Shown here: piece after piece, positions 838 to 22,988 of the stretch
Layout: every line of letters begins with the position of its first letter
How positions within the stretch are numbered: position 1 is the first letter of the stretch
From: Terriglobia bacterium
Lineage (GTDB): Bacteria > Acidobacteriota > Terriglobia > JAIQFV01
DNA: 49,588 nucleotides
Assembly: GCA_020072965.1 (NCBI GenBank)
Contig: JAIQFY010000055.1
Coordinates: 1 to 49,588 of the forward strand
Direction: 5' to 3'
Made by a program: the position numbers and the translations under genes
The notes under the pieces: model-generated
The model's input: only the letters and a program-made list of their open reading frames with translations
The model's database searches: none
Told to the model about the DNA's origin: nothing

Positions 838-3017
838 GGGGATTCCATTGGGGAGACTGCCGTAAATTGGTGCGGGCTTCCGGATCGTCTGATCCCGAGC
901 TTTTGCATGCGGGAGTTAAGAGTCGTGCGGTTGATCCCCAGGCGTGCGGCGGCTCCACGGGGCCCGCCGATCACGCCACCGGTCTCCTCCAGCGTGCGGA
1001 GAATGTGCTCGCGTTCGAGGTCTTCAAGCGTTTTCGCCTTAGCCTGAATCCCTTCTGGACTCGACAGCGCGGTGGCAACATGCTTCAATTCCAGGGTATC
1101 GCCCTCGCACAAAATGACACCTCGCTCAATGACGTTTTCCAACTCCCGGATATTTCCGGGCCACGGGTATTGTTCCAACGCCTCAATGGCTTTCGCGGAG
1201 ATCTTTGTGATGTCTTTATTGAACCTCAACGAGTGCCGATGCACGAAATAGTGAACCAGCGGAACGATGTCATCCCGGCGATCGCGCAAGGGCGGCAAAT
1301 GCAACGGAAAGATATTTAAACGATAATACAGGTCCTGACGGAATTCACCCCCTTGAACCATGGCCATCAGATCCCGGTTCGTGGCTGCGACAATTCGCAC
1401 GTCCACCTTGATGGTCTTATTCCCCCCGACCCGTTCGAACTCGTGCTCCTGCAAAACTCGCAGCAGCTTGGACTGAACGTCCTTGGGAACCTCCCCGATT
1501 TCATCCAGAAAAATCGAACCGCCGTCCGCCAACTCGAAGCGGCCATTTTTGCGGGTGATAGCGCCCGTAAAGGCCCCTTTCTCGTGTCCGAACAGCTCGC
1601 TTTCGATTAATCCCATCGGGATGGCGGCGCAATTGACCTTCACAAAAGCACGCTCTTTACGCGGGCTCAGATCATGGATCGCCCGTGCGATCAATTCCTT
1701 ACCAGTTCCTGTCTCCCCTGTGATCAACACGGTGGAATCGGTCTTCGCGACGCGTTCCGCGCCGCGGAGGATTTTGCGAAGCTGCCGGCTTTGCCCCACA
1801 ATTTCTTCAAAATTCTGCTCCGTCTTAATCTCCTCTTGTAGATAAACATTTTCCTCTTTGAGCTGATTTTTCAGCCGGGTGATTTCCTCGTAAGCCAGCA
1901 CGTTGCGGAGCGCAATGGCAACCTGATCGGCCACCTGCCTCAAGAACCCCCGGTCCGTGTTGTCAAAATGGTGGGCTTCACGACTGGCGAAGTTAAATCC
2001 ACCGAGCAATCTTTCCTGGACAATCAGGGGGACAATGAGAACTGAGAGAAACCCTTCCTTCAAATAGATGTCAGTGAACCACTTGAATCGCGGCCCGGTT
2101 CGCAAATCACTGATCAGGACGATGTCCTTGTGCTGAATCAGGTATTGACCCAGGGTATCCTCCTCCAGAGGGAATTCCAGTTGCGGCTCAAAGACATTGA
2201 AGTCGTCTGCCGCGGTAGGCGGGTGGTGAACTCCCCCCAATTGGATATGCCGGGGCTCGTCGGCGGAAAGCACCACGAACAGCCGGACCACTCGTTTGAC
2301 CTCTTCCACCAGCACTACCGAAGCGGCATCAAACGTTACATAGCGGTGCAGGGCACGAAACAGCGAACGGAACAATTCTTCCCGGTTGAGATGAGACGCG
2401 ATCGCATTATTGAGTTCGAGAATCAGCTGATATTGTTGTTCGAGGCGTACCTTTTCCTGCAACGCAAAATTATCCTGCTCGAGTTTTCGTGAAACCCGTT
2501 TCAACTGCTCGTAAGTGGTCGCGTTGTCGTAGGCCAGGGCCACGATCCGCGACACCTCTTCAAAGAACGTCTGTTCCTCCGTGGTGTAAGCATTGACCTG
2601 CCGACTGGCAATCGAGAGGATTCCCGCGACGCGGCCGCGTACCATCAGGGGGACCGCACAACCCGACCGTAATCCGCCCTGCATCAGCTTCGACGTACTC
2701 AGCATGAACTGTTCGGAATTTCCAAAATCGGGGATCAGCAGGGATTCGCGATGCTCATAGACCCAGCCCGCAATGCTTCCCTTTCGCGGGACTTTCACAT
2801 ATTTGGTCAACACCGGGTTGGGTGCATCGATCTCCAACATCTGGATCTGAAATCCATCTCCTTCCGGATCCCGGATCAGCACTGCCGCATAATTGAGATC
2901 CACCAGGCGACGCAGCAACTTGACTGCGGCATGAAACACGCCATCCGGATCAAGCTTCGACACCGTAGCCGTCGCCATCTCCAGAAAAGCCTGGTATTTT
3001 TGTTCGACTGAACTCAT
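834..3017 (-). CDS. Sigma-54-dependent transcriptional activator with two GAF domains
   Basis: A 727-residue FhlA/NtrC-class enhancer-binding protein. Two GAF-like sensor domains (about 15-165 and 205-375) are joined by a coiled coil. The AAA+ core (about 405-630) shows Walker A GETGTGKE near 429, the sigma-54 contact loop GAFTGA near 482 and Walker [12 protein letters not shown] near 502. The C-terminus has a Fis-type helix-turn-helix (about 670-715). There is no response-regulator receiver domain, so the signal is probably a small molecule or redox ligand of the GAF domains rather than phosphorylation. The gene overlaps yjbQ by 4 bp. No -24/-12 (GG-N10-GC) promoter was confidently found nearby, so its target is unknown. 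Confidence 0.95.
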
Positions 3018-3222
3018 ATCATTCTGGTGCCAGAGGACCGTCTTCTGGATCGAACCCTATACCATTCTCGGTCCTCTGAATGCATCTGTAACAAGTAAGA
3101 AACATCTATCAGACATTCGACCACACCTTCGAAGGCAAACTCCACAGGCTTTCTTTGCGGTCTTTGCGCCTACCTTGCGACCTTTGCGGTTGACTATTCC
3201 CCCTGGAAAACTTCAACCTGCA

Positions 3223-4176
3223 TCAAGTGAGAATGCGCTCTCCCACCTTCTGCTCAAGCGCCCTCTCATAGACCGTTGCGCCGACTGCAAGATCCTCCAG
3301 GGCGATCCCCAGGGACTTAAAGAATGTTATCTCACCCTTTGATTCCCGGCCCTTTGATTGACCGGTCACGACAGAGCCGAGTTCTTCGACCTTTTCCCAG
3401 TACATCAAGCCACGCTCCACGCATTTCAGGAACTCCCCTGCTTCCATCTTGGCTTGATCAAGAGAATCGACGACAATCCGATCCGATCGCAGAACCGTGG
3501 CAGTATCCACCTCGGCGCGAAGGGGGGAATTTCCTCCGATGACATTGAGATGCGTCCCTTCAGAAATCCAGTCCCCATCGAAGAGGGGCTCCGAGGTGGT
3601 GGTCGCCGTGATCACAATGTCTGAGCCTTCGAAGACGGATTTCGCCTCGGCAACAGGTTGAACTTCAATCTTCAGCGCTGCCTCCATCGTCTTGCAGAAA
3701 GCTTGCCTTCGTTCGATTTTCCGCGAGAACGCGCGGACACGTCTGATTTTTCTCACGGCGCACACGGCCTGTAATTGGGTTTGGGCCTGGTATCCCGTTC
3801 CGAATATCCCGATGGAGGTGGCCTCTTCCCGTGCCATCCATTTCGTGGCAATCCCACTGGCCGCGCCAGTCCGCATCTGCCCCATGCGATCGGCTTCAAT
3901 AATTGCCAGCAACTCGCCGGTTTCCGAATGATAAAGATTGACCATGAACTTCGAACCTGAAGTGAACCATGTGTAAGCCTTGAAACCGATAACCCCGAAG
4001 GCGGGGAGTCCGGCCGCCATCAGATTCAAGCCGCCGTGCTTTTGATGAATACGGGTGCGGGGTAAATTTGTGGCGCGGCCATGCCCCAGTTCCGTAAAGG
4101 CACGCTCAACCGATGCCAAGGCCGTCGGCATATCCAGCAATCGCTCCACATCTGTTTCTCGCAAGAGCAACGCCAT
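3223..4176 (-). CDS. Ornithine cyclodeaminase / mu-crystallin family protein
   Basis: A 317-residue NAD(P)-binding protein of the ornithine cyclodeaminase/mu-crystallin family, of usual family length. The Rossmann glycine motif GTGYQA is at 126-131, preceded by the conserved E-A-D-R-M-G-Q-M-R-T-G-A-A-S-G block (about 94-108). The C-terminal D-S-L-D-Q-A-K-x-E-A-G-E motif is also present. Members include ornithine cyclodeaminase, alanine dehydrogenase (archaeal type), ketimine reductase and lysine cyclodeaminase, and the substrate cannot be fixed from sequence alone. It stands alone on the minus strand, about 200 bp from the sigma-54 activator. The gap 3018-3222 holds only G/T-rich repeated words (TTTGCGG) and no gene. 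Confidence 0.9.
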   Translation of the reverse strand: MALLLRETDVERLLDMPTALASVERAFTELGHGRATNLPRTRIHQKHGGLNLMAAGLPAFGVIGFKAYTWFTSGSKFMVNLYHSETGELLAIIEADRMGQMRTGAASGIATKWMAREEATSIGIFGTGYQAQTQLQAVCAVRKIRRVRAFSRKIERRQAFCKTMEAALKIEVQPVAEAKSVFEGSDIVITATTTSEPLFDGDWISEGTHLNVIGGNSPLRAEVDTATVLRSDRIVVDSLDQAKMEAGEFLKCVERGLMYWEKVEELGSVVTGQSKGRESKGEITFFKSLGIALEDLAVGATVYERALEQKVGERILT

Positions 4177-20183: not shown

Positions 20184-20576
20184 TCATAAACTGACGTCGA
20201 TTGACTCCACCAATTTCTTGGCCTGGGCCCCTTTGAGGTCCTTCAATTGTTTGGTGTACTTGTCGATTCGCTCAAGGGCGTTGCGGGCGGCGGCCTCGTC
20301 CTCTGCGGCGCTGAGCTGCTTGTAGTGGTCCCCAATCTCACTCAACGAGCCGGAGAGCAGGTTGAGATAGGTCAGCGCTTCCTTATCATGATATTGCTTC
20401 TCAAAATTCTCGAGACTTTCCCCTTTAACCGTCTTCAAGAGCCCCTGCATGGATTCCTGGTACGCCTTAAAAACCTGGAAGTGAGTGGGACAGCATTCGT
20501 TCTTAACCGCTGAGGATAGTTGGAGCGAGAAACAAAGAAGAGCACAGACACCGATGAATAGGACCAACCGTTGCAT
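20184..20576 (-). CDS. Secreted small helical protein of unknown function
   Basis: A 130-residue protein with an N-terminal signal peptide (about 1-23, ending S-S-A) and a Cys-Cys pair right after it (N-E-C-C-P-T). The remainder is charged and helical, with D-K-Y-T-K-Q-L-K-D-L-K near the end. I do not recognise a family. GGAGG lies five bases before ATG 20576. It is transcribed ahead of the lipoprotein at 19103-20008 with a 175-bp gap. Confidence 0.7.
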   Translation of the reverse strand: MQRLVLFIGVCALLCFSLQLSSAVKNECCPTHFQVFKAYQESMQGLLKTVKGESLENFEKQYHDKEALTYLNLLSGSLSEIGDHYKQLSAAEDEAAARNALERIDKYTKQLKDLKGAQAKKLVESIDVSL

Positions 20577-20603
20577 GGATACCTCCAGGTGGGACTCGCG
20601 CAT

Positions 20604-20907: not shown

Positions 20908-21132
20908 TTATGGCTTAAACGGATCGTACCTATAGGCGGGACACTGTTCTGTTCGCGTTTTACCCCCACAGACGTGGAATTTCTGACGCTCTTCAATGGA
21001 AATCTCGACAGCATTACAAAAATCCGGCTCCTTTCCCAGATAAGGATCGTCCTTGAAATGCCCCCGGCGAGATTCCTTTACGTGATGCGCACAGTGCTCG
21101 CAGGAATACACTTGAGTCGCTACTTCGGCCAT
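20908..21132 (-). CDS. Small Cys-rich, probably metal-binding protein
   Basis: A 74-residue protein with C-E-H-C near residues 10-13, then Cys at about 39, 55 and 64, and H-H near 16-17. The arrangement suggests a zinc or iron-sulfur site, but the spacing does not match a family I can name. No signal peptide. It stands alone. The function is unknown. Confidence 0.6.
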   Translation of the reverse strand: MAEVATQVYSCEHCAHHVKESRRGHFKDDPYLGKEPDFCNAVEISIEERQKFHVCGGKTRTEQCPAYRYDPFKP

Positions 21133-21337
21133 GATCAGTCCAACATCCTTTTATTGAGGAGTTGATCCGTATAGGATCAGAAAAGACTACAACCCAATAC
21201 TAGAATGACCGCATGCCTCCAAACAATCTCCTATCTCCAGAGATCCCGGCACGGGGAGACAGTCTAGCAGAATTGCGCATCGCCCCGCATGAATTATTTG
21301 GGTTTTCTGAAAATTGCAGGCGTCAGATAATATTTTG

Positions 21338-21670
21338 CTAGAAATCCTTCCATTGCTTCTCATCAAAGCCGAGATACAACCTCTTGCCAATTTGCACAAT
21401 CGGACGTTTGATGAGATTGGGTTCCTGTGCCATTAACTTCAGGGCCTCCTCAAATGCGGGAGGAGCAATTTTCATATTCATCGTGCGAAATAACTCGTTC
21501 CTTGTATTCAGAAACACCCGGTAATCCTGTTTGCCGATCAGTTCCCGCAGCTCTTCCGCGGAGAGAGGTTGCTTCCCCAAGTCACGTTCAGTCATTTCCG
21601 CTTTTCTGTTTTGCAAGAAACTTCTTGCTTTTCGGCAAGTCGTTCAAGTCGACTTGAAGTAGAAGGTCAT
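21338..21670 (-). CDS. Spx/ArsC-family thioredoxin-fold protein with in-frame TGA at the first CxxC position
   Basis: The plain open frame (21338-21616, 92 codons) starts mid-family. Reading upstream in the same frame through one TGA (21644-21646) gives M-T-F-Y-F-K-S-T-(TGA)-T-T-C-R-K-A-R-S-F-L, the expected Spx/ArsC N-terminus, with TGA exactly where the first Cys of the CxxC motif belongs. The C-terminal half has the family's N-L-I-K-R-P-I motif. Total length of 110 residues is normal for the family. The simplest explanations are selenocysteine (see the hairpin at 21613-21646) or a one-base nonsense change in a Cys codon. The start is uncertain: ATG 21670 or 21679 (GGGGG upstream). The biochemical role is a redox regulator or arsenate-reductase-like enzyme. 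Confidence 0.75.
21613..21646 (-). promoter_or_regulatory. Candidate bacterial SECIS-like hairpin downstream of TGA
   Basis: Fifteen bases after the TGA, GCAAGA (21628-21623) pairs perfectly with TCTTGC (21618-21613) around an AGTT loop. The loop begins 21 nt after the TGA and contains G-T, in line with the known spacing and loop rule for bacterial SECIS elements. An alternative stem, CTTGC/GCAAG, competes with it. Confidence 0.5.
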
Positions 21671-21875
21671 CCTGGGCATCGAATCCCCCGGGTCCATGTG
21701 TTTGAGAATCTCCCCGCGCTCCATCAACCCATCATGGTAGGCGAAATCATCTCCCAGGGCAAGGCACCGTGGTTGGATCCTATTGATTTTCTCCGGTTCA
21801 GAAGGACCGATTCCCGTTTTCAAATCCGAATAAACTGTGTTAAATTCCTAGCCCTTTACGCGAATCAGGGCTGGC

Positions 21876-22988
21876 ATGAGCACTCAAGCGACTCCGGCAA
21901 CCAAAACAAAAAACCGCCGCCTCTACATCGATTGGATGCGGGGCCTCGCCTGCCTGTTGATGTTTCAAACCCACGTCTATGATTCCTGGCTTTCGCCTTC
22001 AGCGCGCACCGGCACATTTTTTGGGCTGTCCCAGCGGATCGGCGGCATGCCTGCTCCGATGTTCTTGTTCCTGGCAGGAGTTTCCATGGCCCTGCTCACG
22101 CAGTCTTTACGAAAGAAGGGACTGGGCGTTGGGGCGAAGATGGAAACCACGCTGAGGCGCGGCTTCAGGATTTTCCTGCTCGGCCTGGCCTTTCGCGCCC
22201 AGGAGTTCATCCTGGGACTCCCCTGGGCCCCGTGGAAGGACCTGCTCCGCGTCGATATCCTCAATACCATCGGATTGTCTCTCATGCTGATGGGGCTGGT
22301 GATTTCGATTTCGAGCACACGGAAGCAAGACTATCTTCTGACCGGATTGACGACGCTGGCCGTCGCGCTGGCAACTCCTTTGATCTGGTACGGCGCTTAT
22401 CCCTCCTGGATCCCCTCTCTCATCACAGACTATCTGCACGGGGGCCGCCGCCCGTGGTTCTTCCCGGTCTTTCCCTGGGTGGGATTCGCCTTCGCCGGGC
22501 TTTTTGTCGGGACCCTGATTATTTCCACTAATGAGAAGTTCAAGGAATCGACACTGACTCTCTGGTTTGCGGCCGGCGGAGTGCTTTCTATCGCCGCCGG
22601 GATGATCATGGATCGTCTGCCGGTCCAACTTTATCCGGTGTATGACTACTGGCACACTTCTCCCAACTTCTTTGCAGTCAAGTTCGGCGTCTTATTGCTG
22701 ATGGTGGCGTTTTCTTACTGGTGGTGTGAATGGGTGGGGCACCGGGGGTTCAGTTGGGTCGCGCAAATCGGCCAGACTTCATTGCTGGTGTACTGGGTAC
22801 ATATCCCCTTCGTTTATGGGAGGTTCAAGTACTTCTCTCATGACCTCTCCATCGGGTGGGCCAGTGTAGGCCTGGCGGCAGTCACTGCATCGATGCTGCT
22901 GCTTTCGATTCTGAAGACGCGTTACCGCGACGCCGCAAAAAACTGGATTACGGCCACCAGGGCAAGACTAGGTGTCGCAATTCTTTGA
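21876..22988 (+). CDS. HGSNAT/DUF1624-type membrane acyltransferase-like protein
   Basis: A 370-residue integral membrane protein with about ten hydrophobic segments. It begins R-L-Y-I-D-W-M-R-G-L-A-C-L-L-M, the opening of the heparan-alpha-glucosaminide N-acetyltransferase-like (DUF1624) family, with a conserved H near residue 38 and P-A-P-M-F-L-F-L-A-G-V-S at about 60-71. A late Y-W-V-H-I-P-F is also typical. Family members move acetyl groups across the membrane onto sugars; the substrate here is unknown. Its 3' end overlaps the convergent gene 22948-23469 by 41 bp. Confidence 0.85.
   Translation: MSTQATPATKTKNRRLYIDWMRGLACLLMFQTHVYDSWLSPSARTGTFFGLSQRIGGMPAPMFLFLAGVSMALLTQSLRKKGLGVGAKMETTLRRGFRIFLLGLAFRAQEFILGLPWAPWKDLLRVDILNTIGLSLMLMGLVISISSTRKQDYLLTGLTTLAVALATPLIWYGAYPSWIPSLITDYLHGGRRPWFFPVFPWVGFAFAGLFVGTLIISTNEKFKESTLTLWFAAGGVLSIAAGMIMDRLPVQLYPVYDYWHTSPNFFAVKFGVLLLMVAFSYWWCEWVGHRGFSWVAQIGQTSLLVYWVHIPFVYGRFKYFSHDLSIGWASVGLAAVTASMLLLSILKTRYRDAAKNWITATRARLGVAIL

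Follow-up and report, generated by a model that had tools for sequence, protein, structure and literature searches.

The reading frame and its in-frame TGA

Does the in-frame TGA near the 5′ end of a small ArsC/Spx-like gene specify selenocysteine (Sec), or does it mark a stop, an error or a damaged gene? The gene lies within the window, the whole stretch of 49,588 nucleotides of a Terriglobia bacterium contig that was analyzed here (Table 1). An earlier note had proposed that extending the plain open reading frame in the 5′ direction places the TGA exactly at the first Cys of a CxxC motif, and translation reproduced this. Reading the minus strand from 21670 to 21338 with the TGA taken as a residue gave 110 amino acids (MTFYFKSTUTTCRKARSFLQ...) that are followed by a TAG stop codon at 21338-21340, with the TGA as residue 9 counted from ATG 21670 and as the first position of U-T-T-C. 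We infer from computational support (gene, codon, hairpin, machinery, conservation, selection and fold) that UGA is almost certainly read as Sec, and we hold with very high confidence that this is a genuine selenoprotein gene in which Sec is inserted at residue 9 of an ArsC/Spx-fold protein.

The proposed span of 21338-21670 was right in its frame and stop codon but probably not in its start. Translation probably begins at ATG 21679, three codons 5′ of 21670 (MPRMTFYFKSTU), since GGAGG precedes ATG-GCA-AAG-ATG-ACC in the same-genus ortholog and since the N terminus of the same-family ortholog reads MAKYTFYHKSTU. The product comprises 113 amino acids with this start and 110 with ATG 21670. The second Cys of the motif, Cys12, is the probable resolving cysteine. 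A protein search of the own genome at E <= 0.001 returned the window gene as the sole copy. Gene callers that treat TGA as a stop would cut off the active site of the selenoprotein, and its redox function would then be missing from the annotation of the genomes that carry it.

Table 1. Features of the selenoprotein locus in the window
Feature	Positions	Strand	Basis
ArsC/Spx-family selenoprotein gene	21338..21679	minus	Pfam ArsC, TIGR01617; start judged from orthologs
In-frame TGA, read as selenocysteine, first position of UxxC	21644..21646	minus	Translation, homolog codons
TGC, Cys12 of U-T-T-C	21635..21637	minus	Cys in 51/51 aligned homologs, own included
Bacterial SECIS-like hairpin, GCAAGA-AGTT-TCTTGC	21613..21628	minus	Stem/loop scan, folding -7.3 kcal/mol

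Selenocysteine machinery in the genome

The genome (5.9 Mb in 108 contigs, completeness given as 100) was searched for the components of Sec insertion, and the possibility that it has no Sec machinery proved false. SelA (556.5 bits, cut-off 267.9), SelB (381.7 bits, cut-off 242.25) and SelD (376.7 bits, cut-off 125, with one in-frame TGA) were all present, together with a tRNA-Sec that scored 69.8 against an Rfam gathering score of 47 and that ARAGORN likewise called as tRNA-SeC with the anticodon TCA. The in-frame TGA of selD is located close to the N terminus (L010:1531-1533, contig C68 of the own genome). With this TGA taken as Cys, SelD reached 382.9 bits on TIGR00476, and it is likely a second selenoprotein of this genome. 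Selenoproteins of the SelD family are already known. At L001:268-1431 (plus strand) and 1489-3624 (minus strand), selB and a neighboring ORF face each other in convergent orientation; the ORF resembles radical SAM enzymes, presumably of the MqnC type.

TGA and Cys codons at one column among homologs

Matches to the protein at E <= 0.001 were found in 69 of 151 genomes, which comprised the own genome and genomes of the same genus, family and class. In total, 56 loci including the own one were read: 49 from the 151 genomes (30 from the protein search, own copy included, and 19 of 20 further regions, the 20th, L079, being a repeat of the same-genus ortholog that was left out) and seven from named records. 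Four of these records are labeled Acidobacteriaceae, Acidobacteriota or Terriglobia, and one each Binataceae, Deltaproteobacteria and Proteobacteria. Four of the 56 loci are distant homologs (L075 to L078). The set of 56 excludes weaker matches, for example in G012, G021, G024, G040, G056 and G076 (some with TGA), and second pieces in G089 and G125.

The codon at the Sec site was TGA in 43 loci, TGC in 10 and TGT in 3. Placement relied on a motif search with a preference for U or Cys, which hence leans towards these two; seven loci were placed by tblastn instead, and in-frame TGA codons in the 151-genome search were counted without the motif. The column thus holds either TGA or Cys, and the supposition that all close homologs carry Cys is false. 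One genome (G057) contains two TGA copies (L032 and L074). In a tree of 55 rows, built with the U/C column masked, at least six label changes were required, four of them forced by well-supported branches; Sec and Cys therefore appear to have replaced one another repeatedly. Some joins of this tree are unsure because of long branches (L077, L078 and L073). The named Acidobacteriota loci grouped among the genomes of the same class.

The 99 codons past the TGA were compared with those of the same-genus ortholog, which gave a dN of 0.072, a dS of 0.657 and a dN/dS of about 0.11. Compared with the same-family ortholog, the same stretch showed a dN of 0.207 with dS near saturation (2.5). The frame 3′ of the TGA is under purifying selection, in line with the argument of the earlier note that an intact downstream frame speaks against an old nonsense mutation. 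An ordinary Cys gene hit by a nonsense mutation, or by an error in sequencing, would explain why a lone TGA parts a short N terminus from an otherwise normal ORF, but the same TGA is found in the same-genus and same-family orthologs and in 43 of the 56 loci (own included), some of them from records labeled Acidobacteriota, Binataceae, Deltaproteobacteria and Proteobacteria. With the TGA kept in independent assemblies and with the downstream frame under selection, we rejected a pseudogene, the probability of which is negligible.

Alternatively, the TGA could be a true stop, with the protein starting downstream at TTG (residue 19) or ATG (residue 26) and lacking the redox motif. The open frame past the TGA does offer these start codons; such a product, however, would lack the first strand (residues 2 to 5) of the predicted fold and, in large part or entirely, its helix 1 (residues 10 to 21). 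This very unlikely explanation was rejected because conservation extends to the codons 5′ of the TGA and because Cys stands exactly at the TGA codon in relatives.

Decoding as another residue, either Trp or by general readthrough, would equally leave the frame intact. It was dismissed, with next to no probability left to it, because all 13 non-TGA loci carry a Cys codon, because TGA co-occurs with selA, and because TGA also serves as a stop: the same gene ends at TGA in 14 of the 56 loci. Among the class genomes, selA exceeded its cut-off for 36 of 36 TGA loci (35 genomes) and for 5 of 9 Cys loci (8 genomes), counted without the four distant loci and uncorrected for relatedness. The genomes of the distant loci (G046, G077, G072 and G052) all have selA, and adding them gives 38/38 versus 7/11. 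Overall, selA was over its cut-off in 112 of the 151 genomes. We conclude that Sec is by far the best reading of the TGA.

A SECIS-like hairpin downstream of the TGA

The perfect 6-bp stem with an AGTT loop that had been reported 15 nt past the TGA was found at that place (Table 1), with 21 nt separating the TGA from the loop. The published bSECISearch rules, applied by a script in place of bSECISearch itself, are given in the accessible text of PMC13188914 as a stem of 4-16 bp, a loop of 3-9 nt, a spacing of 16-37 nt, a G within the first two loop positions and a model energy of -7.5 kcal/mol or lower. Stem, loop and spacing of the window hairpin all fit, as they do in 8 of 13 Cys homologs, and the energy of the bare hairpin falls 0.2 kcal/mol short of the threshold. 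When a 41-nt stretch including the TGA was folded, a competing hairpin (-8.7 kcal/mol) was favored over the SECIS-like one (-7.3 kcal/mol); its z score was -1.67, and 14 of 200 shuffled sequences folded equally well. In the competing hairpin, the second and third bases of the TGA take part in pairing, together with bases 1-2 and 5-9 after it. A ribosome paused at the codon covers nearby mRNA and would mask bases of the competing hairpin. Without the TGA in the folded stretch, the SECIS-like hairpin was the best fold.

How often such a hairpin arises by coincidence was estimated in two ways. In 70 of 20,000 synonymous recodings of the window stretch, a hairpin of at least 6 bp with a GU loop persisted at the same position, and in 490 of 20,000 one of at least 5 bp did. 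Across all frames of both strands, the window holds 1,800 TGA triplets, of which 32 precede a 6-bp hairpin with a GU loop. Because recodings and other TGAs of the window sometimes yield such a hairpin, the window hairpin taken alone is modest evidence for Sec; its conservation among relatives is strong evidence. An Rfam search of 21400-21800 gave no match. Scanning the window for a TGA followed by a 6-bp hairpin and at least 50 open codons returned six candidates, among which only the ArsC/Spx gene resembled a protein family, as judged by eye alone.

Conservation of the hairpin among relatives

A strict rule (stem of at least 5 bp, at most one G-U pair and GU early in the loop), which was chosen post hoc with the sequences already seen, was passed by 39 of the 43 TGA loci and by one of the 13 Cys loci, uncorrected for relatedness. 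Of the four TGA loci that missed it, three (L072, L075 and L076) still fold into an uninterrupted stem in this position, with a number of G-U pairs or a loop that the rule does not permit, and the fourth (L057) folds into a stem with mismatches. The looser published stem, loop and spacing rules were passed by 42 of the 43 TGA loci; they discriminate poorly, because 8 of the 13 Cys homologs pass as well. The stretch 12-41 nt past the codon folded with a mean energy of -8.9 kcal/mol in TGA loci (n=43) and -5.4 kcal/mol in Cys loci (n=11, L077 and L078 left out).

With the four distant loci left out, codon 8 past the TGA (Gly or Ser) was always GGT or AGT in the 41 close TGA loci, and the entropy at its third position was 0.00, versus 1.82 in 11 Cys homologs. 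The same hairpin is built from differing stems (GCAAGA, CCAGGA, GCGAAG and GGTCAAG), and between lineages it persists while the stem moves by one base or the loop changes in length. When RNAalifold was given the 43 TGA stretches together, no common structure emerged (2 pairs, -0.25 kcal/mol), probably because the stem registers differ among lineages, and hairpins were subsequently judged sequence by sequence. Recoding controls at other loci passed in 104 (L034), 286 (L029) and 1,362 (L051) of 20,000 cases; the recoding test is weaker for relatives such as L051, which has another stem, since more recodings pass there.

Two groups of loci stood out. One Cys (TGC) homolog, L056, still has a SECIS-like hairpin (L056:5025-5072) and is the sole Cys locus that passes the strict rule. 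It is placed in a clade with TGA members, and the combination of hairpin and TGC would fit a recent Sec-to-Cys change, as expected under such exchange. A distant, more ArsC-like branch (L075:2022-2024 and L076, from genomes G046 and G077) carries TGA at the same site with a different stem (GGTCAAG...CTTGACC), and L075 scored 91.3 bits on TIGR00014 (cut-off 106.05). Taken with their hairpins, the Sec and Cys homologs offer a clean natural experiment, both on the exchange of the two residues and on how a SECIS element may constrain coding sequence.

Family assignment and predicted fold

For matching against Pfam and NCBIfam, Cys was substituted for U. The window protein passed Pfam ArsC (PF03960; E 2.3e-18, 66.7 bits, cut-off 24) and TIGR01617 (Spx/MgsR, arsC_related; 81.2 bits, cut-off 75.05). 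Five relatives scored between 66.1 and 77.6 on TIGR01617, four below the cut-off (66.1-71.2) and one above (77.6). All three Spx models were missed (NF002459, 71.7 versus 123; NF009885, 57.4 versus 152; NF009210, 51.2 versus 159), as was TIGR00014 for glutaredoxin-linked arsenate reductase (38.1 versus an equivalog cut-off of 106.05). An AlphaFold model from an alignment of eight sequences reached a pLDDT of 93, a confident prediction of the fold. Among 51 aligned homologs, C12 and R89 were invariant and the R57 column held R in 39, K in 11 and H in 1; the U/C column had been set to C by script in this alignment, so that its invariance is meaningless.

A regulator of the Spx type would be a selenenylsulfide redox sensor that binds the C-terminal domain of the RNA polymerase alpha subunit. 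This is suggested by Spx chains being the closest solved relatives by sequence and ranking first in Foldseek (YffB and ArsC-related proteins next), by the passed TIGR01617 cut-off, which one of the five relatives shares, and by R57 and R89 aligning with Spx R60 and R92. However, VIA-align ranked an ArsC-related protein at the top (Z 16.9) and Spx and YffB next (15.9), within about 1-2 Z. Moreover, Spx residues D51-G52 lie opposite a gap in 52 of 52 alignment rows, and the G52R substitution in Spx disrupts binding to the alpha C-terminal domain, according to the available portion of PMC2801614. Considering this and the scores below the cut-offs of the Spx models, an Spx-type regulator is improbable. 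The label "Spx/ArsC-like" given in the earlier note is therefore apt as a fold family and does not extend to a proven regulator. Since the G52 segment of Spx falls in a gap and all three Spx models were missed, we call the window protein a putative ArsC/Spx-family selenol oxidoreductase, a designation based on sequence and model comparison.

Gene neighborhood

Of the loci read, 21 of the 43 with TGA and two of the 13 with Cys carry a gene with a rhodanese domain (Pfam Rhodanese, 1.4e-19) upstream and on the same strand; L032 and L054, both within these totals of 43 and 13, hold under 300 nt of upstream sequence. The aligned part of the rhodanese gene stops 44-278 nt before the Sec/Cys codon; examples are L029, L047, L051 and L067, from class families f5, f6 and f11. 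No rhodanese gene was present in the 1.5 kb upstream of the selenoprotein gene in the own genome, which has three rhodanese matches on other contigs (best, 41% identity). In the window, no partner was recognized beside the gene: the downstream frame at 20184-20603 had no Pfam match, and the divergent neighbor (21876-22988) encodes a membrane protein of the acyltransferase type (HGSNAT_cat). Directly downstream of the selenoprotein gene, the minus strand has a small open frame rich in Cys (MAEVATQVYSCEHCAHHVKES..., 20911-21150).

The rhodanese neighbor is a first hint at function and suggests a sulfur or persulfide substrate. A Sec-containing Spx/ArsC-fold protein that works with a rhodanese as a selenol persulfide or sulfur-relay reductase, or as a Sec redox sensor, of Acidobacteriota is conceivable, if rather unlikely. 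In the open-access literature, we did not find this role assigned to any ArsC-family selenoprotein.

Proposed mechanism

In the mechanism that we propose, SelB carrying Sec-tRNA(Sec) would bind the hairpin directly 3′ of the UGA, and Sec would be placed at residue 9 to yield a small ArsC/Spx-fold protein with the active site U-T-T-C. The nucleophile of ArsC is its first Cys, and the selenol is the likely nucleophile here. It could attack an oxidized substrate, such as a disulfide, a persulfide or an oxyanion such as arsenate, after which Cys12 would form a selenenylsulfide to resolve the intermediate, with thioredoxin or glutathione as the possible reductant.

Comparison with known systems

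Selenoproteins of the ArsC/Spx type with UxxC are already known, and the window protein, as a well-supported selenoprotein, is a new example of them that falls outside NF041106 as curated. What is possibly new is that the NCBI seleno-ArsC model does not reach the window protein, and the pairing with a rhodanese. Searching the open-access literature, as far as its texts were accessible, returned no Spx/ArsC selenoprotein of Acidobacteria and no rhodanese pairing, leaving aside the four selenoproteins counted for Acidobacteria in the available part of PMC1794560. For Desulfotalea psychrophila, the same part records an ArsC-like selenoprotein, and for Desulfuromonas acetoxidans a distant homolog of ArsC. 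The retrieved sections of PMC12013277 contained no ArsC, and those of the reviews PMC9312934 and PMC13188914 describe an ArsC-like UxxC family, the latter as NF041106.

The comparisons below follow the order of known selenoproteins and then Cys-containing relatives. We take the conserved domain cd03032 to be the Spx subgroup of ArsC. The statement in the earlier note that ArsC-like selenoproteins occur in metagenomic surveys agrees with the GOS family "Arsenate reductase 2" (cd03032, UxxC), for which the excerpted text of PMC2398784 counts 42 selenoproteins in 21 samples and 238 Cys homologs. Compared by description, this family shares the ArsC-type thioredoxin fold, UxxC and Cys homologs with the window protein, but it stems from marine and other aquatic metagenomes, whereas the loci described here come from genome assemblies of a class of the Acidobacteriota type. 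NF041106, "ArsC family (seleno)protein" in the consulted part of PMC13188914, likewise has the ArsC fold and the UxxC position; the window protein, however, scored 43.7 against its cut-off of 85 (five relatives, 20.7-38.6) and lies outside this curated subfamily. The arsenate reductase selenoprotein from the Sargasso Sea also places Sec in the ArsC family, but with UxxS in place of UxxC, as stated in the portion of PMC1088965 at hand.

Among Cys-containing proteins, Bacillus subtilis Spx is the closest solved relative and has CxxC at the same place, with Cys rather than Sec and with a G52 segment that is missing from the window protein. The YffB and ArsC-related reductases (1rw1 and 3gkx) share the fold (Z 15.9 and 16.9 over 109-110 residues) at 26-27% identity and carry Cys where the window protein has Sec.
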